A stretch of 24,201 bases of DNA from a virus (IMGVR_UViG_3300024520_000487:1-24201), one strand, 5' to 3'; positions 1-22,795 are shown, counted from the stretch's first letter. Program-made: numbers and translations. Notes: generated from the letters alone by a model not told the origin.

Positions 1-3000
1 CAACAGGTTCTTTAGAACCGGAAGCTGATACGGTCGAGGTGCCTGACGGGCATACGCCTCACCATCCGAATCGTAATCGTACAACCTGTTCTTGAACGGA
101 ACATCGGTAAACAACTTTTTGTTTGTCGCCAACTCCACCGGCACCTTGATCGCAGGTGACGTATCCGAAAGCATACGCAGCGGATCAAACCCGTCCGGAC
201 CAGTACCGGTAATCGCAGCCAAATCCTGCCGGAACCGCAGAGACGGCAAGTCAGGTGTGAAATAGACGGTGCCGCCATCACGCTCACCCCAAGGTGTCTT
301 AATGGCACCCATTTCCTCAAAGTAGCCAGGTGTTACCTGGTCATCTTCGGAACCCAACTCCAAGTTTCGTTTGATGTTGAAATATGATCGGTTCAACTTG
401 CCAGGTGAATGCGACCAAACAGACGCCTGTAGAGCCATGTTCCGAGAGTAAAACATCCAGAACGGGCTAACCCTCTTAGCTCCACGATCAAACCCCGAGA
501 TGTCTCGATAGTTGAAGTGGAACCTTTCGATATGCTCCAAAGCTGTAACCTTGTCGCCGCCCTTAACCATAACGTCATAGGCGTGCCCACCACGCATCCT
601 GGCCTCAGCGTTACCGGATCGTTCACGAATCCACTTCGTAGGCAAAAAGTCTGTTGAGAACGGGTTGGCGTTAAACTTACCACCAGCCAAGTTTTGTGTA
701 ACTTCCTGAGCTTGCAAACCCCAACCAGAACCAGCCGCAGCCTCCAACGCCCCCTGGAGGTTCGGAATGTCATCCTCAAACCCGTGCTTCTTCGCCCACT
801 TGTTAGCGGCCTGCACACCACCCAGATGCCCCCTGGACTCTGATGTCAGCCAACCCTCATACTCTTTCAGATATCGTTGGAACTTTGAGAAGTTCCGAAC
901 CGTAACATTATCAAGATACATACCGAACATACCGGAATAAAGGTTACGAGCCACAAACCCCGGACTGGCCGTAGCATACGACTTCCACAAGTTCAACGCT
1001 TGATCGTACCCTCGGATAACCTTAGCCAACTCCTTAGCCTGCGCTGGGTCAGTCAAATCAATCTGACGTTTCAAAGCGTCAGCATACCAGTCAGGTGCCT
1101 GCAAAGTGTCGTCAATCATCCGGTAACCGTCATCGGTCACACGCATCATATGTTCGGCAAACTTCGGATCAGTCAACGAACGAACAATACCGTCACCAAC
1201 CTCTTGGGCCGAAACTTTCATGTTGAAAGTAGCGGCATCATACGACAAAGCCTGAGCCTCCATATTACGGATCAGATCAAAACTTTTATCCTCACCCAAA
1301 TCCTTATAGGCTTTCAACATGACATCCATCTGTTCGGACAACAAATCGTTAGCCTCCTGCTTACCAGCCAGGTCGCCTTTCTTGCCAACCTTCGCTCCGT
1401 CAGCGAACTTAGCGCCCTTGCGGTACAGGTCGTTGGCGTTCATCAGCCGTGTTCGGGCTGTCTCGGTGTCCATCATCAACCAGACATGGGCGTTAGCGGC
1501 ATCGGTATGGGCCTCGAACTTGCTTAGGAACTGTGCCCTGGTTTCACGAACACCCTTCTCCGCTTGAGCCAGAGTAGAAACAGTCTCTTTCGTACCAGGG
1601 ACCGGAAACATCTCGTCCATAGCGTCACGAGCCTTCTGAGCCTCATCCAGATTTTGCTGAAAGATCGTGTGAGCCTTCTCAGCTTCCTCACGAGCCGCCG
1701 CCCAATCAGCCTTCGACTCAACCTTACGTGCCCGCTCCAACTTCCCGTTGGTGAAACTGATCTTCTCCTGGGCTGCAACAATGTCAGCCTCAAGTTGCTT
1801 GATCTTGATAGAAGCCGTACGCTTAGCACCCTTACCCTTAGAGGACTTCATAGCCCTAAACAGAGATAGCGCACTCTCATAAGCCCCCAACTGGCCCTGG
1901 AGAACATTCACAGAAGATTCCAGTTGAGCAATCTTCTCAGCCGACTCCTTGATAGTAACATCAATCTCACGCAACATCGTCCTGGCAGCATCACGGCCAC
2001 CCCGAGCGTCCTTAGCAGCCTTCTTCAACGCCTTCTTCCGAAGGTTGGCAGACGCAACCAGGTTCGCTAGCTCAGCAGCCTCCAACGAAGCCTTGTCCAC
2101 CTTGAACGGGGCCGAACCAAGAACATTGTCAGCAATGTTCTTGTTCGCAATACCGTCCTTCAACAACTGTAGCTGACCGGCCTTCATGTACGATCCGAGC
2201 AAACCGGGAAGGTCATCTTCCAACACTTTGATGTTGACGGCCTCCATCGAAATCTCATTCAGCCGTTTGATCGTCAAATCTGATTCTGTTAGAATGGTCC
2301 CAAAAAAATCGTCACCCGCCTCCAATGTTCGTGCCTTCACGAACGCCTGATCGGGTGCGTTCACCAACTTGACGATACCGGACAAACGTTCCTCACCAGC
2401 CTGGAACAACTCTAGCGCAGCCTTCGTCGGAACATGATTGATATATCCGGACCTAAGATTAAAATCAATACCAGCATCCTTGAGAGATGCACCCGCTGAA
2501 TCAAACCAGGCGTTCACCTGGGCTGCACGACGACCAGCCACACTACCATCTAGCACCGAAGGGTCCAGCCTTGATCGCTCAACGAGGTCAATGATCTCAC
2601 CGCTGTCATATTTTCGGTTCTTTTTTCCCAGCCAACGCATCGAAGTAGTTGATCGCTTGGCCGCATTATCGGCCCAAAAGTGTGAACCCATCTTAGCCAA
2701 ATGCACGTTAGACAAAGCTACCGCTGCCTCAGGGGCCGTACTCGAACCCAAGATGATAGCTTCCTTGGCAGCAGCTTCCAACGCCCCGAACGTAGCATCG
2801 TCAGCGGCCATCCGTGCCCTAAACTTACCGGCCCTATCCGTCTTAGACAACCAATGCTTGAAAGCCCCCTTGCCTGACTCGGATAGTTCCGCCAACCGGC
2901 GGCTACCAGCAATAGCGACCCTGTATGTTTTGCCACCGAACGAATACCCTAGACGTGACTGGACACCCAACTCGCCCAACAGGTTATCTGTCACACCCAT

Positions 3001-15073: not shown

Positions 15074-16027
15074 TTAGGAACCCATTTCAGCCATCACAAT
15101 GGCTGCGAGTTCACCGATGTCAGTGAAGTTATCGGCAGGAATCTCAGAAGCCTTAAACGATCGGGTTTGAGTAGACGAAGCCTTAGCTTTCGCCGCCTTC
15201 ACATCAGCAGCCGTAGCAGCATCCTGCTCGGCGACCACCTCCGCAACCTGGGTATCAACCTTACCAGAAGTCTCATCTTTCTGAGACAACCTTTGAGCCG
15301 ACAAAAACCAGTGGGCATCCTCCAACGAAATGTTCTTCCTGGCAGCCATCCTCAAAGTGTTTTCGGGTTCAAAGTCGTCCCCAAAACGCTCCTGCAGACC
15401 ACGCACCTCCTGGCGAATATCCTCCAAAATCCCTCGATTTTGAATCTCCTGCAACTGCCGTTGAGCTACTTCTAGCTCTCGACGGGTCTGTACAGTTTGT
15501 TCCGCCCAAGGACGAACATCATCATCCAAATCATTCAACGCATCAGTCTGATCAGAAACCTTCGCAGCCGGATCAACATTGTACGCCTTAGCAAACGCCG
15601 CCAACGTACCCTGTGGGTCCAGCTTGAAAGCCTCTTGAACTTCCTGCGCCCATTGCGCCTCAGACTTTAGACCCGCAACCTCTTGGGTTTTACGAGTGTA
15701 ATCATCTTGACGCATGAAACCGTTACGTGCTTCCTCAAGGGTAACCATACGGTCAACCCCATCTTGACGTACCGGAATCAACTGGTCAGCATACTGCTTC
15801 CAGTCAAACGGCTCGGCCGATCCTTCTTGGGTGTCGGCTTCCTCGGTGCCTTCTGTAACATCGGCAGGTTCCACAACGGGAGTGTCTGCCTGGTCAGCCT
15901 CAACGATATCAGCATTATCAGCAACATCGTCAATAACCGGTTCGGTTGTTTCTACAACCGGATCGCTCACATCAGACATTTCTTCAACGACTGTATCGAA
16001 TAGCTCTCCTAGAGCATCTTCGGGCAT
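15074..16027 (-). CDS. Capsid assembly scaffolding protein, 317 aa
   Basis: The first ~75 residues are strongly acidic, rich in Glu, Asp, Val and Thr. Around residue 97 is VTLEEARNGFMRQDDYTRKT, close to the 'EA-x-x-G-(Y/F)-x-RQxDYTRKTQE' segment common in podovirus-type scaffolds. The central part (about 160-215) is Gln/Arg/Glu-rich coiled coil, and a basic/Ala-rich region follows near residue 270. Scaffolds of this kind guide procapsid assembly and then leave. GGAG lies 7 bases upstream of ATG 16027. A 27-bp conserved promoter-like element lies 35-61 bases upstream, so scaffold and capsid probably share one strong transcript ended by the hairpin at 14044-14072. Confidence 0.85.
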   Translation of the reverse strand: MPEDALGELFDTVVEEMSDVSDPVVETTEPVIDDVADNADIVEADQADTPVVEPADVTEGTEEADTQEGSAEPFDWKQYADQLIPVRQDGVDRMVTLEEARNGFMRQDDYTRKTQEVAGLKSEAQWAQEVQEAFKLDPQGTLAAFAKAYNVDPAAKVSDQTDALNDLDDDVRPWAEQTVQTRRELEVAQRQLQEIQNRGILEDIRQEVRGLQERFGDDFEPENTLRMAARKNISLEDAHWFLSAQRLSQKDETSGKVDTQVAEVVAEQDAATAADVKAAKAKASSTQTRSFKASEIPADNFTDIGELAAIVMAEMGS

Positions 16028-16088: not shown

Positions 16089-16095
16089 AGAACGC

Positions 16096-16123
16096 AAAAT
16101 GCAGCCCCGAAAGGCCGCATTTT
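16096..16123 (-). terminator. UUCG hairpin terminator downstream of the tRNA array
   Basis: On the minus strand AAAATGCGGCCT pairs with GGGCTGCATTTT around a TTCG tetraloop (12 pairs, including G-T wobbles). A-rich and T-rich flanks make it able to act in either direction. It separates tRNA-Thr from the scaffold promoter-like element. Confidence 0.7.
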
Positions 16124-16136
16124 GACTGATTGCAGA

Positions 16137-16212
16137 TGGAGCCAGTGACAGGATTCGAACCCGCTGCAACTTGCTTACAAGGCAAGCACCCGACCATCCG
16201 GGTCCCGCTGGC
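16137..16212 (-). tRNA. tRNA-Thr(TGT)
   Basis: Cloverleaf of 76 nt: acceptor GCCAGCG/CACTGGC with one mismatch, D-stem ACCC/GGGT, anticodon loop CTTGTAA, T-loop TTCGAAT. CCA is encoded. It is the last tRNA of the array in transcription order. Confidence 0.9.
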
Positions 16213-16213
16213 A

Positions 16214-16289
16214 TGGCTCCGACCCAGGGTTTCGAACCCCGCTCTCCTGATTAACAGTCAGGTTCTATCGCCAAGATTGATAGATCGGA
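16214..16289 (-). tRNA. tRNA-Asn(GTT)
   Basis: Acceptor TCCGATC/GGTCGGA, anticodon stem CCTGA/TCAGG with loop CTGTTAA, T-loop TTCGAAA, discriminator G, CCA encoded. One base separates it from the next tRNA on each side. Confidence 0.9.
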
Positions 16290-16290
16290 A

Positions 16291-16365
16291 TGGTTCTTCA
16301 CCAGGGATTCGAACCCTGACCGGTACGATTAAGAGTCGCCCATGCTACCTTAACACCTGTGAAGA
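16291..16365 (-). tRNA. tRNA-Lys(CTT)
   Basis: Acceptor TCTTCAC/GTGAAGA, D-stem GTGT/GCAT, anticodon loop CTCTTAA, T-stem CAGGG/CCCTG, discriminator A, CCA encoded. The outer pair of the anticodon stem is mismatched. Confidence 0.85.
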
Positions 16366-16398
16366 AGGTTTATGAAAAAACCGCAGGATCGTTGACAG

Positions 16399-16466
16399 CA
16401 CCGACACAAGGTAACGATCCCTGTTTCGCAGGTTTGGAAGCTGCTTACCGTCCTACGGCTGCCGGT
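16399..16466 (-). tRNA. tRNA-Trp(CCA)-like, with collapsed D-arm
   Basis: Acceptor ACCGGCA/TGTCGGT, anticodon loop TTCCAAA, discriminator G as in bacterial tRNA-Trp, CCA not encoded. At 68 nt it is short: the D-arm is only about CGT-AGG-ACG with no GG, and the T-loop is ATCGTTA rather than TTCGANN, so the usual D-loop/T-loop contacts cannot form. It may be a divergent functional tRNA or a decaying one. Confidence 0.6.
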
Positions 16467-16478
16467 TTGTTTATTCGA

Positions 16479-16556
16479 TGGGGTGAACGACGAGACTCGA
16501 ACTCGCTAACTACTTGGGTCACAACCAAGCGCCTGGGCCACTTCGGCTTCGTCCAC
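16479..16556 (-). tRNA. tRNA-His(GTG)
   Basis: Acceptor GTGGACG/CGTTCAC, anticodon stem CTTGG/CCAAG with loop TTGTGAC, T-loop TTCGAGT, discriminator C and CCA encoded, as expected for His. The base at position -1 is T, so the G-1 usually encoded by bacterial tRNA-His genes is missing. Confidence 0.88.
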
Positions 16557-16580
16557 AACATTTGGAACAACTGCTCCTAG

Positions 16581-16652
16581 TGCCCCCCGGAGGATTCGAA
16601 CCCCCATCTCACGGCTTAAAAGGCCAGTCGCTTACCGTTAGCTGAGAGAGGC
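16581..16652 (-). tRNA. tRNA-Lys(TTT)
   Basis: Acceptor GCCTCTC/GGGGGGC with wobble pairs, anticodon loop CTTTTAA, T-stem GGGGG/CCTCC with loop TTCGAAT, discriminator A, CCA not encoded. Together with tRNA-Lys(CTT) both Lys codons have a matching tRNA. Confidence 0.85.
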
Positions 16653-16657
16653 ATGTT

Positions 16658-16731
16658 TGGTAGTCCCACAGAGATTCGAACTCTGTCCTGCAGCTTGAGA
16701 AGCTGCGATACTACCCATATACGATGGGACC
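16658..16731 (-). tRNA. tRNA-Glu(CTC)
   Basis: Acceptor GGTCCCA/TGGGACT, anticodon stem GCAGC/GCTGC with loop TTCTCAA, T-stem CAGAG/CTCTG, CCA encoded. The acceptor closely resembles that of the adjacent tRNA-Glu(TTC), suggesting duplication. Confidence 0.9.
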
Positions 16732-16740
16732 AAAATGCGA

Positions 16741-16815
16741 TGGAAGTCCTACAGAGAGTTGAACTCTGTTCCCCAGGGTGAAAACCTGGTATCTTAACCG
16801 ATGGACGATAGGACC
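16741..16815 (-). tRNA. tRNA-Glu(TTC)
   Basis: Acceptor GGTCCTA/TAGGACT, anticodon stem CCAGG/CCTGG with loop TTTTCAC, T-loop TTCAACT, CCA encoded. Confidence 0.9.
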
Positions 16816-16820
16816 ATGAG

Positions 16821-16893
16821 CGCCATGTACGGGAATCGAACCCGTCACTCCAGCGTGACAAGCTGGCATGTTAACCGATAACACTAACACGGC
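16821..16893 (-). tRNA. tRNA-Asp(GTC)
   Basis: Acceptor GCCGTGT/ACATGGC, anticodon stem CCAGC/GCTGG with loop TTGTCAC, T-stem ACGGG/CCCGT, discriminator G (Asp identity), CCA not encoded. Its 5' end directly abuts the 3' CCA of tRNA-Cys. Confidence 0.9.
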
Positions 16894-16967
16894 TGGATGG
16901 AAACTCGGGAGTCAAACCCGATTCAGAAGGGTTGCAGCCAACTGCATAGTCGTCATGCTCGTTTCCA
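16894..16967 (-). tRNA. tRNA-Cys(GCA)
   Basis: Perfect acceptor TGGAAAC/GTTTCCA with discriminator T (Cys identity) and encoded CCA; D-stem GCAT/ATGC; anticodon loop CTGCAAC. The anticodon stem GTTGG/CCTTC has two T-T mismatches, so it is weak. Confidence 0.8.
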
Positions 16968-16968
16968 G

Positions 16969-17041
16969 TGGTTCCCCCAGGGTTCGAACCCGGTCCAACA
17001 GCTTTTCAGACTGCTGTGCCTCCAGAATACACCAGAGAACC
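16969..17041 (-). tRNA. tRNA-Phe(GAA)
   Basis: Acceptor GGTTCTC/GGGAACC, anticodon stem GCAGT/GCTGT with loop CTGAAAA, T-stem CCGGG/CCTGG, discriminator A, CCA not encoded. Confidence 0.88.
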
Positions 17042-17046
17042 ATGAA

Positions 17047-17070
17047 GGTTGGGGACCGAAGTCCCCAACC
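17047..17070 (-). terminator. UUCG hairpin after the 110-aa gene
   Basis: GGTTGGGGAC pairs perfectly with GTCCCCAACC around C(UUCG)G on the minus strand, a very stable tetraloop. It lies between the stop of the 110-aa gene and tRNA-Phe, with TTCATGG after it. It may attenuate transcription into the last eleven tRNAs or protect the mRNA 3' end after tRNA processing. Confidence 0.75.
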
Positions 17071-17074
17071 GAAC

Positions 17075-17407
17075 TCAGGTAGCCAAGGCTGCGTGCCAAC
17101 CAGTAGCAGTAGTCTTGGTCAAAATCACCATGTCGCCAGCAGCGACAGTAGCGACCGTACCAACAATCGTATCCGAACCAGTCTTAGCGGAAGTGACCGC
17201 ACCAGCACCGATCTGGATAACGAAAAAGACTGTACCCAAGGGCCAATCAACAGTAGTTGACTCGGGAAGCGTCAACGTTGTAGCAGAGCCATGAGACACT
17301 GTTACAGCAGAGAACGGGCCTGTCCGAGACGACAGAGTGTTAGCAGCCCCTGTAAGGGCTGTGAGCCGGGTCCGTCCGACCGGCGCAGTTGAAGCAGTTG
17401 TTGCCAT
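17075..17407 (-). CDS. Small fibre-type structural protein inside the tRNA array, 110 aa
   Basis: The segment SHGSATTLTLPESTTVDWPLG, then TVFFVIQIGAGAVTSAKTGS and DTIVGT resembles a beta-rich module seen in phage fibre and head-appendage proteins (LTVP-x-N-x-x-V-x-FP-x-GT-x-I-x-V-x-Q-x-GAGQVTF). Here it forms almost the whole protein, so it is probably a small virion decoration or fibre-tip protein. AAAGGA lies 10 bases before ATG 17407. The gene splits the tRNA array into 15 upstream and 11 downstream tRNAs and is followed by a UUCG hairpin. Upstream there is a short inverted repeat GTTTG-ACG-CAAAC and TATACT (17427-17443) but no clear promoter pair. No signal peptide is seen. Confidence 0.7.
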   Translation of the reverse strand: MATTASTAPVGRTRLTALTGAANTLSSRTGPFSAVTVSHGSATTLTLPESTTVDWPLGTVFFVIQIGAGAVTSAKTGSDTIVGTVATVAAGDMVILTKTTATGWHAALAT

Positions 17408-17514
17408 TTCTGTGTATCCTTTTTTAGTATACTAGTTTGCGTCAAACCCTAAAAGGTGTTTGGCGACTTCAAGCTGGAAGCCTGCGTTTCACAACATGGG
17501 TTGCGATTGTTTTG

Positions 17515-17595
17515 TGGTGGGCCGAGATGGAATCGAACCACCCATGCCGAAGCGGCTGGTTTACAGCCAGCGTGAACACCTTGTTCTTTCGACCC
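17515..17595 (-). tRNA. tRNA-Tyr(GTA)
   Basis: Acceptor GGGTCGA/TCGGCCC, anticodon stem GCTGG/CCAGC with loop CTGTAAA, class II variable arm of about 12 nt, T-stem GGTGG/CCATC, discriminator A and CCA encoded. The D-loop is short. Confidence 0.88.
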
Positions 17596-17677
17596 TCAAA
17601 CCACGGTCTCCCACATCATTCTACTTCCCCTACCGCAGTCAGCCTAGGGAACCTTGCGTTAGATATGGTGGCTAGCG

Positions 17678-17752
17678 TCTGGATGGAAGGATTCGAACCT
17701 CCGATGCTCCTGATTCCAAATCAGGCGGGCTGGCCTACTGCCCCACATCCAG
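17678..17752 (-). tRNA. tRNA-Pro(TGG)
   Basis: Perfect acceptor CTGGATG/CATCCAG, anticodon stem CCTGA/TCAGG with loop TTTGGAA, T-stem GGAGG/CCTTC, discriminator A, CCA not encoded. An 82-bp stretch without recognisable feature separates it from tRNA-Tyr. Confidence 0.9.
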
Positions 17753-17763
17753 TTGTATTGCGA

Positions 17764-17841
17764 TGGAGTACCTACACGGATTCGAACCGTGACCTGCTGG
17801 GTGGAAGCCAGTTATGCTTGACCGTTAAACACCATAGGTAC
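17764..17841 (-). tRNA. tRNA-Gly(TCC)
   Basis: Perfect acceptor GTACCTA/TAGGTAC, anticodon stem ACTGG/CCAGC with loop CTTCCAC, T-loop TTCGAAT, discriminator T as usual for Gly, CCA encoded. Confidence 0.9.
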
Positions 17842-17842
17842 C

Positions 17843-17918
17843 TGGTGGAGAAGGCCGGATTCGAACCGGCAGCCGTCTACTTGCAAAGCAGTTGCTCTAC
17901 CATTGGAGCTACATCCCC
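17843..17918 (-). tRNA. tRNA-Ala(TGC)
   Basis: Acceptor GGGGATG/CTTCTCC includes the G3-U70 pair that defines alanine identity; anticodon loop TTTGCAA; T-stem GCCGG/CCGGC; discriminator A; CCA encoded. One acceptor pair (6-67) is T-T. Confidence 0.9.
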
Positions 17919-17919
17919 G

Positions 17920-17994
17920 TGGTCCACGAGGCACGGATCGAACATGCCAGTGACAGGATGTAAACCTGCTAGGGACACCAGTCCCGACTCGTGG
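17920..17994 (-). tRNA. tRNA-Val(TAC)
   Basis: Perfect acceptor CCACGAG/CTCGTGG, anticodon stem GCAGG/CCTGT with loop TTTACAT, T-stem GCATG/CGTGC, discriminator A, CCA encoded. Confidence 0.9.
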
Positions 17995-18008
17995 TTTATA
18001 AAACCTAG

Positions 18009-18082
18009 TACCGCTTACAGGGATCGAACCTATCTGAAACACCTTATCAGGGTGTCGCCTACAACCAGTTGGCTTAAACGGC
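18009..18082 (-). tRNA. tRNA-Ile(GAT)
   Basis: Acceptor GCCGTTT/AAGCGGT, anticodon stem ACACC/GGTGT with loop CTGATAA, T-stem ATAGG/CCTGT, discriminator A, CCA not encoded. It reads AUC and AUU but not AUA. Confidence 0.9.
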
Positions 18083-18083
18083 A

Positions 18084-18159
18084 TGGTACCCAAGGTGGGA
18101 GTCGAACCCACAGATTACAGTTTCTAAGACTGCTGCCTATCCCGTTCGGCTACTCGGGC
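18084..18159 (-). tRNA. tRNA-Leu(TAG) with class I (short) variable loop
   Basis: A complete 76-nt cloverleaf: acceptor GCCCGAG/CTTGGGT, D-stem GCC/GGC, anticodon stem GCAGT/ACTGT with loop CTTAGAA, T-stem GTGGG/CCCAC, discriminator A, CCA encoded. The variable loop is only AATCT (5 nt), whereas bacterial leucine tRNAs normally have a long class II arm. Confidence 0.85.
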
Positions 18160-18164
18160 ATGAG

Positions 18165-18251
18165 CGGAAAACTGAGGGCACGATCCCCAAGACGTTTAAC
18201 CGTCCCATACAGTTTAGCAAACTGCTCCCGAACCTATCGGGTTAGCTTTCC
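18165..18251 (-). tRNA. tRNA-Ser(GCT)
   Basis: Acceptor GGAAAGC/GTTTTCC, anticodon stem GCAGT/ACTGT with loop TTGCTAA, long class II variable arm with stem GACG/CGTC, discriminator G, CCA not encoded. The T-loop is ATCGTGC, which departs from TTCGANN. Confidence 0.82.
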
Positions 18252-18257
18252 ATGCGA

Positions 18258-18343
18258 TGGAAGAAGGTAGAGGAATCGAACCCCCAGGTGTTACCCCGCC
18301 CCAGGGTTCAAACCTGGTCGCCAACCATTTAGCGGTACCTTCC
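18258..18343 (-). tRNA. tRNA-Ser(TGA)
   Basis: Acceptor GGAAGGT/ACCTTCT, anticodon stem CCAGG/CCTGG with loop TTTGAAC, 15-nt class II variable arm, T-loop TTCGATT, discriminator T, CCA encoded. A 90-bp spacer separates it from tRNA-Met. Confidence 0.88.
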
Positions 18344-18433
18344 ACGAAAATCACCCCAGGTGCTTCACCGATATCGTAATCAACCGGGAGAGGACGAGGA
18401 AACTGATCAGGTTTCCCTACCCCTGGGATACGT

Positions 18434-18505
18434 TGGTGGCGGGCCAGAGGATTGAACTCTGCACACTCAGGGTATGAGCCTAGTGGACTAACCATAGCGC
18501 CCGCA
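18434..18505 (-). tRNA. tRNA-Met(CAT), elongator or initiator not resolved
   Basis: Acceptor TGCGGGC/GCCCGCC has a T1-C72 mismatch, a feature shared with initiators, but the anticodon stem CTAGG/CCTGA lacks the three G-C pairs of initiators. Loop CTCATAC, T-stem CAGAG/CTCTG, discriminator A, CCA encoded. The D-arm is short (TGG-TTAGT-CCA). A tRNA-Ile2 with modified C34 cannot be excluded. Confidence 0.75.
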
Positions 18506-18517
18506 ACGAACTGTTAT

Positions 18518-18591
18518 TGGTAACTCCCCCAAGAATCGAACTTGGACACACCGGGTCAGAGCCGAGCGCACTACCATTATGCTAGGGAGTA
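18518..18591 (-). tRNA. tRNA-Gln(CTG)
   Basis: Acceptor TACTCCC/GGGAGTT with an open 1-72 pair (T-T), fitting the weak first pair favoured by GlnRS; anticodon loop CTCTGAC; T-stem CCAAG/CTTGG; discriminator A; CCA encoded. Confidence 0.85.
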
Positions 18592-18595
18592 TCGT

Positions 18596-18675
18596 TGGAA
18601 AGGGAAACCGGAATCGAACCGCAAGACACCACAGGGTCAAAGCCTGTTGGCAGCCCAGCCGCCGGTATCTCCCTA
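18596..18675 (-). tRNA. tRNA-Gln(TTG)
   Basis: Acceptor TAGGGAG/TTCCCTT with T1-T72 open, anticodon stem ACAGG/CCTGT with loop CTTTGAC, T-loop TTCGATT, CCA encoded. The T-stem keeps only three good pairs, so folding is weaker than in its neighbours. Confidence 0.78.
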
Positions 18676-18676
18676 G

Positions 18677-18750
18677 TAGCCCCCCTGGGACTCGAACCCA
18701 GACTGTACACTTTTTGAGGGTGTCGCCTCCTGCCATTGGGCTAGAGGGCC
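18677..18750 (-). tRNA. tRNA-Leu(CAA) with class I (short) variable loop
   Basis: Acceptor GGCCCTC/GGGGGCT, D-stem GCC/GGC, anticodon loop CTCAAAA, T-stem CTGGG/CCCAG, discriminator A, CCA not encoded. The variable loop is ACAGT (5 nt), the same unusual class I form as tRNA-Leu(TAG). The innermost anticodon-stem pair is C-A. Confidence 0.82.
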
Positions 18751-18778
18751 ATGTGTGACCTGACCTAGAGGGCCATCG

Positions 18779-18844
18779 TGTTTCACCAAGGATTCGAACC
18801 CTGAACACTTAGTTTAGGAAACTTGTGCTGTTCCTACGTGAAAC
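18779..18844 (-). tRNA. tRNA-Arg(CCT)-like, without a D-stem
   Basis: Perfect acceptor GTTTCAC/GTGAAAC, T-stem CAGGG/CCTTG with loop TTCGAAT, anticodon loop TTCCTAA, discriminator A, CCA not encoded. It is only 66 nt: about ten bases lie where the D-arm should be and no D-stem forms. The anticodon stem has an internal mismatch. Its first base overlaps the palindrome at 18844-18858. Confidence 0.6.
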
Positions 18845-18858
18845 ATTCTATTAGAATG
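18844..18858. promoter_or_regulatory. Palindromic element CATTCTATTAGAATG between two Arg tRNAs
   Basis: An exact copy of the element at 3860-3874. It occupies the 16-bp gap between tRNA-Arg(TCG) and tRNA-Arg(CCT), so any transcript start or cleavage here would generate the tRNA-Arg(CCT) 5' end. Confidence 0.6.
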
Positions 18859-18860
18859 CT

Positions 18861-18933
18861 TGGTACCCCTCCCAGGAGTCGAACCTGGCCTAAAAGCTTC
18901 GAAGGCTTCTGTCTGCGTTCCGTCAGCAGGGGT
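18861..18933 (-). tRNA. tRNA-Arg(TCG)
   Basis: Acceptor ACCCCTG/GAGGGGT (last pair G-G), anticodon stem GAAGC/GCTTT with loop CTTCGAA, T-stem CCAGG/CCTGG, discriminator A, CCA encoded. It is the first tRNA of the array in transcription order, 10 bases beyond the portal stop. Confidence 0.88.
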
Positions 18934-18943
18934 AAAACCCATA

Positions 18944-20779
18944 CTACACCAAGGGCGGGCCACCTGTCAACGCTTGACCGGGCGGCGCACCCAAATCTTC
19001 CCCACCAGGCGCTGCTGGCAGGACATTCAAGAAATCTTCCGCATTTTTGATACCGAACCCGTTACGCAACAGATGCTCAACCAGCTTCTGATCGTTGATC
19101 ATCCCGGAACCGATAAACGGGGCCATCGTATCCATCAACTGTAGAGCAGACTGCCGTCGGAACGTCTCGTTCTGCGGCTGTGTAGAACCAGCCTCAACAT
19201 CGAAAACAAACTCGCCCTGTAGCTGTGCGGCACTATACGGAACCCAAGATACCACCTGGTCGTCAGAAACAACTCGGGCAACATCCTCAGTTTCCATAAA
19301 CACCTGAGACAAACGGATCATCCGACCAGCAACCCGAGACATCCCCTGCTCAACCTTATACAACTTATCGGCCGAACGGGCGTTCGCAGCATCCTGGATC
19401 AAACCAGCTTCGGTAGCTGTACGTCGAATCTCTGTCGGTGTACCACGAGCATACTCCGAAATACCGGTAATCGTGTTGATGTCACCGATAATCATTTCGG
19501 ACTGGTTGTACCAGTTCGCATCCAACCCGATCGGTTTGATAGTCTGGAAGATGTCCGCAAACGGACGATCTTCCAAAACTTCCAAAAGAACCTGATCATC
19601 ACCAGATTCCAAAGCATCCATACCATCTTCACCGATAGCAGCCGGACGCACCAGATTGATCCGCCGACCAATCTTACGATCGTTGATCATCTGTGTTCGT
19701 GTCAAAGCCAACTCTAGCTGCAACCCGTAAACCGTTTCGATATCACCGATCGGATAGAAACGTTCCGGAACCTCATAGTTCGGGATGAACACGAAAGGAT
19801 GAATCTCCGGGAACGGCGACCGTTCCGGATCAGACAAATAATCTTCCGCACCGTCAGCCAAAGTACAAACATCCTTGCTTACGAGATCATAAAACTCGTA
19901 AACAACAACAAATCCGGCTTCCTTCGACTTCTGATCGGCCCCGCCACCAGACATAACATCGACACCCTCACGAGCATCAGAAAGAACAGTAGCCTTCAAC
20001 TTGCGCCGAACACCAGCATCCCAATCCTCGTTATCACGAGCTACATCAATAGGAACAAACGAACGTTGTGCAATCCACCTGGCATCTTCCAACCTGGAAG
20101 CATCCGGATCAACAAACATATCGAATGGTGAAATACGGGACGCCTTCGGGGCGTCCCGAACCGTTGCCTCCGCTTCCTTCGGAACAGAGCGGACAACTTC
20201 CTCGACGGAAGGGAACTCGCTCTCAGACAACGTAGAACCATCAATGCCCTGCTGCCTTTGCATCAGCGCATCACGAACCTGATTCTGCCATTCCTCGGGG
20301 CTAAGCTTTTGGGTTTCCGTTTCGAAATCCCAAACAACCTTCATCCAGCCGTGACCCAAAATCACAAAATCTTTGATCGCCTCACGAATCTGATCTTGAA
20401 CATCAAACTCTTTCCACTGGTGATTTACAACAGCCTCAGCAACAGCAGCAGTCTCCTGATCCTGGGCACGCCTCGCTGTCACCGTAATCTTAGGAGAAGT
20501 CACAGACACCGAAGGAACAATAACGTTCACAGTGGAGAACGCCATGTTCGGTACAACAACATCCGTATAGTCGTTCAACTCGGGCCAAGGATACTGGTTA
20601 GAGTAAATCTGTAGGAAGTCCGACCATTTCTTATCCCACTTGTTATCGCTCCGCAACTTCTTCGTTGCCTCGATCGTAGCGATCTTCGCCTTAAACTTGT
20701 CGTTCTTCGTTTTCCTACCCTTCCGGGTAGTATCATCAAAAAGCCCGCCAGCAACCTGAGAATCGTAGTTGCTTGGCAT
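18944..20779 (-). CDS. Portal protein, 611 aa
   Basis: The N-terminal region has WPELNDYTDVVVPNMAFSTV followed by NVIVPSVSVTSPKI and later VNHQWKEFDVQDQIREAIKDF, VILGHGWMKVVWD. This is the conserved stem/wing order of phage portals. A later segment (EIRRTATEAGLIQDAANARS, then a helical stretch ending RMIRLSQVFME) is also typical of the portal core. Twelve copies form the DNA channel at one capsid vertex and dock the adaptor. The ATG at 20779 shares one base with the stop of the Cys4 gene (TGATG). It ends in a TAG stop just before the tRNA array, so tRNAs are probably cut from the same transcript. Length about 610 aa fits large podovirus-type portals. Confidence 0.85.
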   Translation of the reverse strand: MPSNYDSQVAGGLFDDTTRKGRKTKNDKFKAKIATIEATKKLRSDNKWDKKWSDFLQIYSNQYPWPELNDYTDVVVPNMAFSTVNVIVPSVSVTSPKITVTARRAQDQETAAVAEAVVNHQWKEFDVQDQIREAIKDFVILGHGWMKVVWDFETETQKLSPEEWQNQVRDALMQRQQGIDGSTLSESEFPSVEEVVRSVPKEAEATVRDAPKASRISPFDMFVDPDASRLEDARWIAQRSFVPIDVARDNEDWDAGVRRKLKATVLSDAREGVDVMSGGGADQKSKEAGFVVVYEFYDLVSKDVCTLADGAEDYLSDPERSPFPEIHPFVFIPNYEVPERFYPIGDIETVYGLQLELALTRTQMINDRKIGRRINLVRPAAIGEDGMDALESGDDQVLLEVLEDRPFADIFQTIKPIGLDANWYNQSEMIIGDINTITGISEYARGTPTEIRRTATEAGLIQDAANARSADKLYKVEQGMSRVAGRMIRLSQVFMETEDVARVVSDDQVVSWVPYSAAQLQGEFVFDVEAGSTQPQNETFRRQSALQLMDTMAPFIGSGMINDQKLVEHLLRNGFGIKNAEDFLNVLPAAPGGEDLGAPPGQALTGGPPLV

Positions 20780-21075
20780 CAGATCGCTTTCTTAGTAGGT
20801 CGATTTTTATGGTGTTCTTCAAGTTTGGTCATCTGGGACCCGACAAGACCGGCACCATGATTCGTTTTAAGTTGCGGGTCAAGACCGTTCGCCCGACCAT
20901 CAGCGATCTGCTTTGTTTGAAAAGCTTTAATCGTGTCGTCGTGAAAAAAGTCTTGATAGCCGTTGAACCCCAGATTCACTGAGGAAACCCGACATTTGAA
21001 ACATACAGTCGGCGCATTGCACCCGCTATTGAAAGCGTCCGGTGCCTTGTCTAGACCACATTCCGTGCAGTTCAT
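20779..21075 (-). CDS. Small Cys4 zinc-ribbon-like protein, 98 aa
   Basis: The N-terminus carries two CxxC pairs, C3/C6 and C25/C28 (plus C19), a pattern that normally binds one zinc ion. The rest is polar with a basic His/Lys-rich end (EEHHKNRPTKKAI). Small zinc-ribbon or HNH-like proteins often lie next to phage terminase and portal genes and can help packaging, but no HNH catalytic motif is visible here. GGGAGA lies about 9 bases upstream of ATG 21075. It is the first gene after the promoter-like element at 21086-21112 and is translationally coupled to the portal. Confidence 0.75.
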   Translation of the reverse strand: MNCTECGLDKAPDAFNSGCNAPTVCFKCRVSSVNLGFNGYQDFFHDDTIKAFQTKQIADGRANGLDPQLKTNHGAGLVGSQMTKLEEHHKNRPTKKAI

Positions 21076-21085
21076 ATAGCAAGTC

Positions 21086-21112
21086 TCCCTAAAGAAAGCA
21101 AAGATCGTCCCA
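21086..21112 (-). promoter_or_regulatory. 27-bp promoter-like element upstream of the Cys4/portal genes
   Basis: On the minus strand it starts TGGGACGATCTTTGCTTT and ends CTTTAGGGA, with GA following. It differs at two positions from the copy at 16062-16088. A start at the GGG would give a 15-16-base leader whose first bases serve as ribosome binding site. It lies one base from the palindrome at 21114-21138. Confidence 0.6.
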
Positions 21113-21113
21113 C

Positions 21114-21138
21114 CATTCTAATAGAATCCCATCAGAAT
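21114..21138 (-). promoter_or_regulatory. Palindromic element with extra half-site between terminase and Cys4 genes
   Basis: CATTCTAATAGAAT (21114-21127) is followed by a second AGAAT at 21134-21138, 11 bp from the first, as at 14005-14029. On the minus strand it lies immediately upstream of the 27-bp element, so a bound protein could control that promoter. Confidence 0.6.
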
Positions 21139-21142
21139 GGCA

Positions 21143-22795
21143 TCAAAAAACCGGGGTGGCACGACGGCGAACGCTTTTGCGTTTCTTGTCCAACTCGGCA
21201 GCCCACCAAGCGATCGACCCAGGAACCGTATCCTCACTAACACGACCAACCTGGTTTTCGATCGCATACCGGCGGGCCTCAACCGTAATGGCTAAAGCCA
21301 TTACGCAGTCATCATGCGGTGAACCATGCAACCTGATACGATCACCACGCTGCTCACGAACAAACGTTTTCAACTCCGCAATAGTCGGAGCATGAGGAAC
21401 ATTATGGGTCCGAGTCCAAATCGACAACTCCTGGAGAATATCAGCCTTGTTGCCGTGAGTCGTCAACCAGCCGATCGTCTCCGTTGGAGAAATCTGCCGC
21501 TTCATCTGAGTTCGCCGACGATAAATGCGGCTGTAACCCCTACGCCGCAAATGATCTACAGTGGTACGGCCATGATTGTTCACCTCGGGTGCAACCAAAG
21601 CATAGTTATACTTATAGCCGATACCGGCAATGATGGTTGCGAAATAGTCCGGCTCACACTTCCCCCGATACACCCCACAAATCTTGCCAGTCTCAGCATC
21701 CATCACAAACGCCACCGACCAGTCACCATGATCCAACCCCTGAGCAATATCCGCTCCGACAACATACGAGGCGAAACGCTCAGGCTCAGAATACACTTCG
21801 AAATCGCCGCCAGGGTCAACCTTGAACCGGTTACCTGTAGCTGTAGCCTCAATCATCCACGAGCCAAGAGATTCCTTGGCTCGCATATCCCGGATCGTTT
21901 CCAGATTGAAAAACGGGTTACCTGACCCGATAAACGCTTCCTCCGGGGTCGAAGGATACTCCTGGAACAGCATCCACGGCTCCATATTCTGTTTCTTATT
22001 CTCATACCAGGCTTCATCACGCTCAGGGACAGCCCACCAAGGATGAAAAATGCTTTTAAACGAGTTCGAACTCGTCTCAGCCCCAACAAACAAACGATGA
22101 AAGAAATCCCCCTCACCCTTCGCCGTGCTAAGGCCAACAATCCGACCACCGATGTCAGTAGCAGGCTCAACCGAAGCCCAAGCCTCCTCCTGGGAAGGAA
22201 AAGACGCCCACTCATCACAAATCACCAAAAAAGCCGTTTCACCACGAATAGGGTCCGACGCAGTAGGACCCGAAACAATGAACGAATCATTCTCAAACGT
22301 CATCTTCAACAACGTTTTGTCAATCACACTCGGGGCACGCTCACGAACCCACGCAGGCATCGACTTCCAAGCAAACTTCGTTTTATTCAACAACGCAACA
22401 GACGTATCTTCCTTCTTCGACAACATATAAATCTGCCGATCAGGCGCACCAATCGCCGTCCACAAACAAAAAGCCGCAGAAAGGGTAGAAAACCCCACCT
22501 GACGGGCCTTTAAAGTGACCGTGTAACGATACTTGAACCAAGAACGCACAGTATCCAACTGTGCTTCCCGAAGAATAAACGGAATCCGTTTCCCAGGAAC
22601 CTTGATAACGATCGCCTCAGCACAAAACTTGGTGAACGCCACCATCAAAGCATCCACCTCATCATCCGGGATCACATCCCGGGCATCAAACTGTAGAGAC
22701 TCAGGAAACCAAGACCTCCACAACAGTTCCTGATCCAGTTTCTCATCTGTCAAACCCCTAGATGCTGACTTCACCCTTTTGATCGCAGTCACCAT
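21143..22795 (-). CDS. terL: Terminase large subunit, 550 aa
   Basis: This is the packaging motor: an N-terminal ATPase and a C-terminal nuclease. The Walker A-like motif is LKARQVGFST (residues 95-104); Walker B is FLVICDEW with D194 and E195; the coupling motif is GLSTAKGEG (221-229). The RNase-H-type nuclease acids are D349 in GADIAQG, E404 in APEVNNHG and D495/D496 in PHDDC. The length is normal for the family. I place the start at ATG 22795, which shares one base with the small terminase stop (TGATG); a TTG one codon earlier is unnecessary. It pumps DNA through the portal encoded two genes downstream. Confidence 0.95.
   Translation of the reverse strand: MVTAIKRVKSASRGLTDEKLDQELLWRSWFPESLQFDARDVIPDDEVDALMVAFTKFCAEAIVIKVPGKRIPFILREAQLDTVRSWFKYRYTVTLKARQVGFSTLSAAFCLWTAIGAPDRQIYMLSKKEDTSVALLNKTKFAWKSMPAWVRERAPSVIDKTLLKMTFENDSFIVSGPTASDPIRGETAFLVICDEWASFPSQEEAWASVEPATDIGGRIVGLSTAKGEGDFFHRLFVGAETSSNSFKSIFHPWWAVPERDEAWYENKKQNMEPWMLFQEYPSTPEEAFIGSGNPFFNLETIRDMRAKESLGSWMIEATATGNRFKVDPGGDFEVYSEPERFASYVVGADIAQGLDHGDWSVAFVMDAETGKICGVYRGKCEPDYFATIIAGIGYKYNYALVAPEVNNHGRTTVDHLRRRGYSRIYRRRTQMKRQISPTETIGWLTTHGNKADILQELSIWTRTHNVPHAPTIAELKTFVREQRGDRIRLHGSPHDDCVMALAITVEARRYAIENQVGRVSEDTVPGSIAWWAAELDKKRKSVRRRATPVF

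Follow-up and report, generated by a model that had tools for sequence, protein, structure and literature searches.

A near-minimal array of 26 tRNA genes between the portal and scaffold genes of a probable small podovirus

Why bacteriophages carry tRNA genes is an old open question, and dense clusters of such genes are already known. In the survey of Morgado and Vicente (2019), clusters of at least 15 tRNA genes with 2-10 genes per kb were confined to genomes of 72-617 kb, and eight of them had all 20 isotypes (PMC6409571). The Xanthomonas jumbo phage XacN1, a 385-kb myovirus, has 26 canonical tRNA genes for all 20 amino acids in each terminal repeat (PMC5852040). Among the Ounavirinae (Felix O1-like phages, Shigella phage Sf14), myoviruses of 86-90 kb have 26 tRNA genes as well (PMC12482277, PMC13015707). 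The large tRNA clusters of cluster C1 mycobacteriophages were proposed to counter depletion of host tRNAs (PMC10264068), and phage tRNAs are reported to help phages evade retrons (PMC11555353). Here we describe an array of 26 tRNA genes whose anticodons cover all 20 amino acids, in the virus record IMGVR_UViG_3300024520_000487. The whole analysed stretch of 24,201 bases is called "the window" below.

The array belongs to the same class of gene number and density as the surveyed clusters, but the family in which it occurs has genomes of about 42 kb where complete (relative L021, MW202803.1), and the longest contig with an array has 37.8 kb. The window itself (24.2 kb) is probably a fragment of a larger genome. 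Judging from its relatives, the phage is probably a small short-tailed virus (podovirus) of about 40-46 kb. XacN1 has seven other translation-related genes, whereas none was recognised in the examined parts of this probably small phage. The Sf14 set serves 19 amino acids, and none of its Met tRNAs is classed as an initiator (fMet) tRNA; the window array covers 20 and includes an initiator-like Met tRNA. The C1 mycobacteriophages are large (the Mycobacterium phage records matched were mostly of 154-165 kb), and there anticodon-loop changes could be tested against known VapC toxins. A search of 50,697 phage records revealed only single similar tRNAs and no cluster, although near-identical records may fall outside the set searched. 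What is new is the probable small genome, a fixed slot that holds 26, 2, 1 or 0 tRNA genes in different relatives, and the initiator-like Met tRNA, rather than a tRNA cluster as such. The best explanation that we can offer, held with about even confidence, is that this near-minimal tRNA operon keeps phage translation going when the host tRNA pool is depleted.

With default settings ARAGORN called 21 tRNA genes within 2.8 kb (16137-18935), all on the minus strand and together covering 17 amino acids; 18 of them reached the Rfam tRNA cut-off in a per-genome search. From the upstream end of the array these are Arg(TCG) (18861..18933), Leu(CAA) (18676..18750), Gln(CTG) (18518..18591), Ser(TGA) (18258..18343), Ser(GCT) (18164..18251), Leu(TAG) (18084..18159), Ile(GAT) (18008..18082), Val(TAC) (17920..17994), Ala(TGC) (17843..17918), Gly(TCC) (17764..17841), Pro(TGG) (17677..17752), Tyr(GTA) (17515..17595), Phe(GAA) (16968..17041), Asp(GTC) (16820..16893), Glu(TTC) (16741..16815), Glu(CTC) (16658..16731), Lys(TTT) (16580..16652), His(GTG) (16479..16556), Lys(CTT) (16291..16365), Asn(GTT) (16214..16289) and Thr(TGT) (16137..16212). 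Five further members on the same strand were found by reading the sequence: Arg(CCT) (18779..18844), Gln(TTG) (18600..18674), Met(CAT) (18434..18505), Cys(GCA) (16894..16967) and Trp(CCA) (16399..16466). With these five, each backed by ARAGORN or by comparison with a second array, the 26 tRNAs that the first-pass annotation had folded at 16137-18933 are recovered in full and at the same coordinates. Its reading of anticodons for all 20 amino acids also holds, since comparative evidence adds Met, Cys and Trp to the 17 default isotypes. At 9.3 genes per kb the array is a tRNA cluster by the survey's definition (at least 15 genes and at least 2 per kb) and, by anticodon, one with the universal set of 20 isotypes.

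The support for these five members differs. Gln(TTG) is called at 95% of the default thresholds, a setting that gives 22 calls in the array and zero elsewhere in the 24-kb window; chance folding is thus ruled out as the origin of the array. Met and Cys are called only when the thresholds are lowered to 80%, where 39 spurious calls arise elsewhere in the window, and relaxed calls below 90% were not trusted alone. For Trp and Arg(CCT) no setting tried gave an ARAGORN call; Rfam matches Arg(CCT) only weakly, with 18 bits, which is below the cut-off. Because of the spurious calls, these four tRNAs need independent support, which is provided by the second array. There a tRNA with an identical anticodon occupies the corresponding position in each case. 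In the window 15-16 of the 17 stem pairs of these tRNAs are intact, and between the two phages each tRNA has 6-9 pairs with changes on both sides. The Cys tRNA (U73) has a core nearly identical to that of its counterpart and an acceptor stem changed on both sides; an exact search with this core matched only two contigs of the G001 type. The Trp tRNA has G73 and no encoded CCA. Its T loop is unusual, ATCGTTA, as also in relative L010, and ATCGTAA in the second array. The weakest member is Arg(CCT), with a D region shortened to 12 nt and a poor anticodon stem; its counterpart is strong (48.8 bits).

The second array (locus L023, a part of the 37,759-base contig G001) was found by capsid searches of IMG/VR. 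Its phage is a distant relative: capsid, portal and TerL are 69%, 57% and 53% identical to those of the window, and the virion proteins are 53-69% identical. The same portal-scaffold slot holds 19 default ARAGORN tRNAs, and counterparts are recognisable for 25 of the 26 window tRNAs, Gln(TTG) being the one without a clear match. The Arg tRNA that reads CGN codons has the anticodon ACG there and TCG in the window. The order of tRNAs is common to both arrays, with a longest common subsequence of 22 of 25, while 5000 shuffles gave a mean of 7.6 and a maximum of 13. Structural integrity is retained as well. Among 425 pairs of the acceptor, anticodon and T stems, 408 are intact in the window and 407 in L023; 144 pairs are changed on both sides, 29 on one side, 226 are the same, and 26 are broken in one or both phages. 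Hybrid stems, with strands mixed between the two phages, form only 286 and 282 of the 425 pairs. For 15 of the 25 tRNAs, however, the closest stems in the other phage belong to a tRNA with a different anticodon, so some tRNAs may be replacements rather than products of evolution in place. For this reason we dropped the both-sided changes as proof of compensation in place. The apparent common descent of the two arrays is argued from gene order, and the set and its order are kept either way.

The minus-strand genes of the window form a terminase-portal-scaffold-capsid-virion series. The array lies in this virion-gene region between the portal gene (18944..20779, minus strand, upstream) and the scaffold gene (15074..16027, minus strand, downstream). 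Syntenic relatives have 26, 2, 1 or 0 tRNAs in this slot. Trp and Met are found in L009-L012 and L019, and Met alone in L013, L014, L016-L018, L044-L048, L050 and others. The nearest relatives found, by TerL, are G011 (65% identical, a 38.8-kb contig) and L079 (59%, a 7.6-kb contig), and a model search revealed no tRNAs in either. In a midpoint-rooted TerL-portal-capsid tree the window, G011 and L079 form one group, with G001 as an earlier branch. Therefore the array either was ancestral to the clade and has been lost or reduced at least twice, or has moved between phages. No relative in host genomes was matched by capsid or portal in a search of genome contigs.

This patchy distribution, with G011 and L079 devoid of the array, is what would be expected of a short-lived and largely neutral cassette that was acquired by recombination and is now in decay. 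The weakened Arg(CCT) of the window and the unclear Gln(TTG) of L023 could be read in the same way. Nevertheless, intact structures, many both-sided changes, conserved order and promoter-like sites argue against neutrality, and a neutral array would not remain near-complete at such divergence; we regard this explanation as very improbable.

Both arrays have signals of their own. Directly upstream of the window array, overlapping the 3' end of the portal gene, is a sigma-70-like promoter (18941..18970, minus strand; TTGACA and TAGTAT separated by 18 nt, 10/12 matches to the consensus). In the same place L023 has a 12/12 site (TTGACA-17-TATAAT). A match of at least 10/12 was found in 17 of 2400 random 110-nt stretches, and relatives with one or two tRNAs reach only 7-8/12. 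After the last tRNA there is a strong terminator-like hairpin with no clean U run (16095..16124, minus strand). The surrounding fold has -19.8 kcal/mol (z -4.0), and its L023 counterpart, in the same place, -27.6 kcal/mol. On these consensus matches, which are not proof of transcription, the array is probably a dedicated operon with its own promoter. Each array also includes a 110-aa protein gene followed by its own strong hairpin (17075..17407, minus strand, in the window; the L023 homologue is 72% identical). The same gene occupies the slot in many array-less relatives, with or without tRNAs. In PHROG the protein weakly matches a minor tail protein.

The position inside a virion gene cluster on the same strand, together with the protein gene within the array, raises the question of whether the tRNAs serve mainly as processing signals that separate virion mRNAs and not as decoders. 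One or two tRNAs would suffice for such punctuation, and it would not need anticodon identity to be conserved; the arrays also have their own promoter-like sites and end hairpins. We consider punctuation barely credible as the main function.

The first-pass annotation had described a near-minimal decoding set with gaps at AUA (Ile), UUA (Leu) and AGA (Arg), and both points proved correct: 58 of 61 codons would be read if tRNAs with U at anticodon position 34 (U34) read whole four-codon boxes. Codons were counted in homology-supported window genes, because spurious open reading frames (ORFs) inflated AUA, UUA and AGA in counts from automatic ORFs, which were discarded. With four-way reading by U34, 6777 of 6782 phage codons would be read and five would not; were U34 restricted to A and G, 2135 codons (31%) would be unread. 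The window uses AUA, UUA and AGA 0, 4 and 1 times, respectively. Unread and readable A-ending codons are in the ratio 9:599, against 69:1158 in ten array-less relatives (p=1e-5, uncorrected for kinship), a deficit that would slightly favour co-adaptation of the genes with the array.

An obvious alternative is that the tRNAs supplement the host for codons that are more frequent in phage genes than in host genes. Two observations agree with such codon compensation. In the two phages with arrays, A-ending codons read by U34 have shares of 11.1% and 12.5% in four-codon boxes, compared with 3.7-9.2% in most array-less relatives, although some relatives with one or two tRNAs also reach 9.5-11.5%. 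The use of CGA and CGG follows the Arg tRNA, with 45% in the window (TCG) and 19% in L023 (ACG; p=6e-8), but this contrast comes from one phage pair, and CGA+CGG spans 13-30% among tRNA-free relatives. Moreover, codon use in the window is almost the same as in tRNA-free G011 (r=0.93), so the array is not needed for translating such genes in an intact cell. The array carries tRNAs for common and rare codons alike, one of nearly each kind and not a selected few. Cys codons are rare (33 of 5482), and the Cys tRNA is nonetheless kept; matching of codon frequencies would not favour a set that retains all 20 amino acids including the rare ones. We think codon compensation possible and on the unlikely side. 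Replacement of the host pool fits better, since a near-full set has been kept over a long divergence, with rare amino acids included, at a codon use close to that of G011.

The Met tRNA bears both on this preferred reading and on another alternative. The absence of a pair at positions 1-72 is a hallmark of bacterial initiator tRNAs. The window Met tRNA has U1-C72, with no Watson-Crick pair, and in 23 of 24 Met tRNAs of the family 1-72 is the only broken acceptor pair (A-C or U-C). The GGG:CCC anticodon stem is present at nine of the 24 family Met loci and in neither the window nor L023. Because it is absent, we call the window tRNA only "initiator-like". As a separate observation, the tRNAs at L030:609-680 and L031:281-352 both have U1-C72 and are identical over 72 nt save for one anticodon base, CAT (Met) in L031 and CCT (Arg by anticodon) in L030. 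Either the anticodon was switched by one base change, or the difference is a sequencing error.

Since relatives usually carry Trp and Met, or only Met, in this slot, the array could have a functional core of Trp(CCA) and initiator-like Met that counters a few anticodon nucleases, the rest being carried along. Initiator tRNA is a known target of VapC (PMC7180214), and in the complete 42-kb relative L021 Trp and Met tRNAs at another locus adjoin an RNA ligase gene (PF09414; region 20569-22366). No RNA ligase homologue was found in the window or G001, both of which are incomplete. Such counter-defence gives no account of why two diverged phages have kept all 20 amino acids and the array order. 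The anticodon loops look canonical, and van den Berg et al. (PMC10264068) report that where fMet is a target, phages mostly refrain from carrying it. We consider this explanation unlikely.

If the array replaces a depleted host pool, it would probably be transcribed by host RNA polymerase from its own sigma-70-type promoter, and host RNases would cut the transcript into tRNAs to be finished and charged by host enzymes. The resulting near-minimal set, 58 of 61 codons with four-way reading by U34 and with an initiator-like Met, would let translation of phage genes go on while host defence nucleases or host shut-off deplete the host tRNA pool during infection. We infer expression and charging of the tRNAs, four-way reading by U34 and the initiator role, as well as depletion of host tRNAs as the selective force. 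A stronger version, in which a phage of about 45 kb switches on a near-complete cassette, the host pool is removed by phage or host, translation including initiation runs almost wholly on phage tRNAs, and sister phages do without the cassette, seems to us distinctly unlikely.

Several observations weigh against replacement of the host pool. A full set is not essential, as relatives with the same arrangement of genes persist on two tRNAs or fewer. The single Met tRNA is initiator-like; the array may thus lack an elongator, and internal AUG codons may depend on the host. One member, Arg(CCT), looks weakened and may be decaying. Except in the L013-L017 group, array-less relatives mostly avoid AUA, UUA and AGA too; the avoidance therefore predates the array or is independent of it, and we dropped it as proof of adaptation to the array. 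The "near independence" from host tRNAs suggested by the first-pass annotation is upheld as far as the near-minimal set goes, and is qualified by U34 reading, the initiator-type Met, the host enzymes that are still required (RNases, CCA addition, synthetases and modification) and the shared codon avoidance.

This phage group lends itself as a natural test of the reasons for carrying tRNA genes. A phage with 26 tRNAs and one with none are 65% identical in TerL and hardly differ in codon use, and this contrast sets compensation apart from pool replacement more clearly than do the large phages on which most work is done. In a genome of this size, such an array would also demonstrate that carrying a near-full set costs only about 3 kb.

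Some individual tRNAs have unusual features. The His tRNAs of both array phages (window 16479-16556; L023 8259-8332) have C73 and T at -1, so that the usual G-1:C73 pair is not encoded. Bacterial Leu tRNAs are usually long-armed; both Leu tRNAs in both array phages have short variable loops of 5-6 nt (window 18676-18750 and 18084-18159; L023 6056-6130 and 6605-6682). TTG is the top Leu codon (50-78%) in most of the members examined (window, G001, G011, L037 and others), at a GC content of about 50%. Several family members have a Leu(CAA) tRNA, which reads TTG, in the early region; it is long-armed in L070 and short in L069, L072 and L073.

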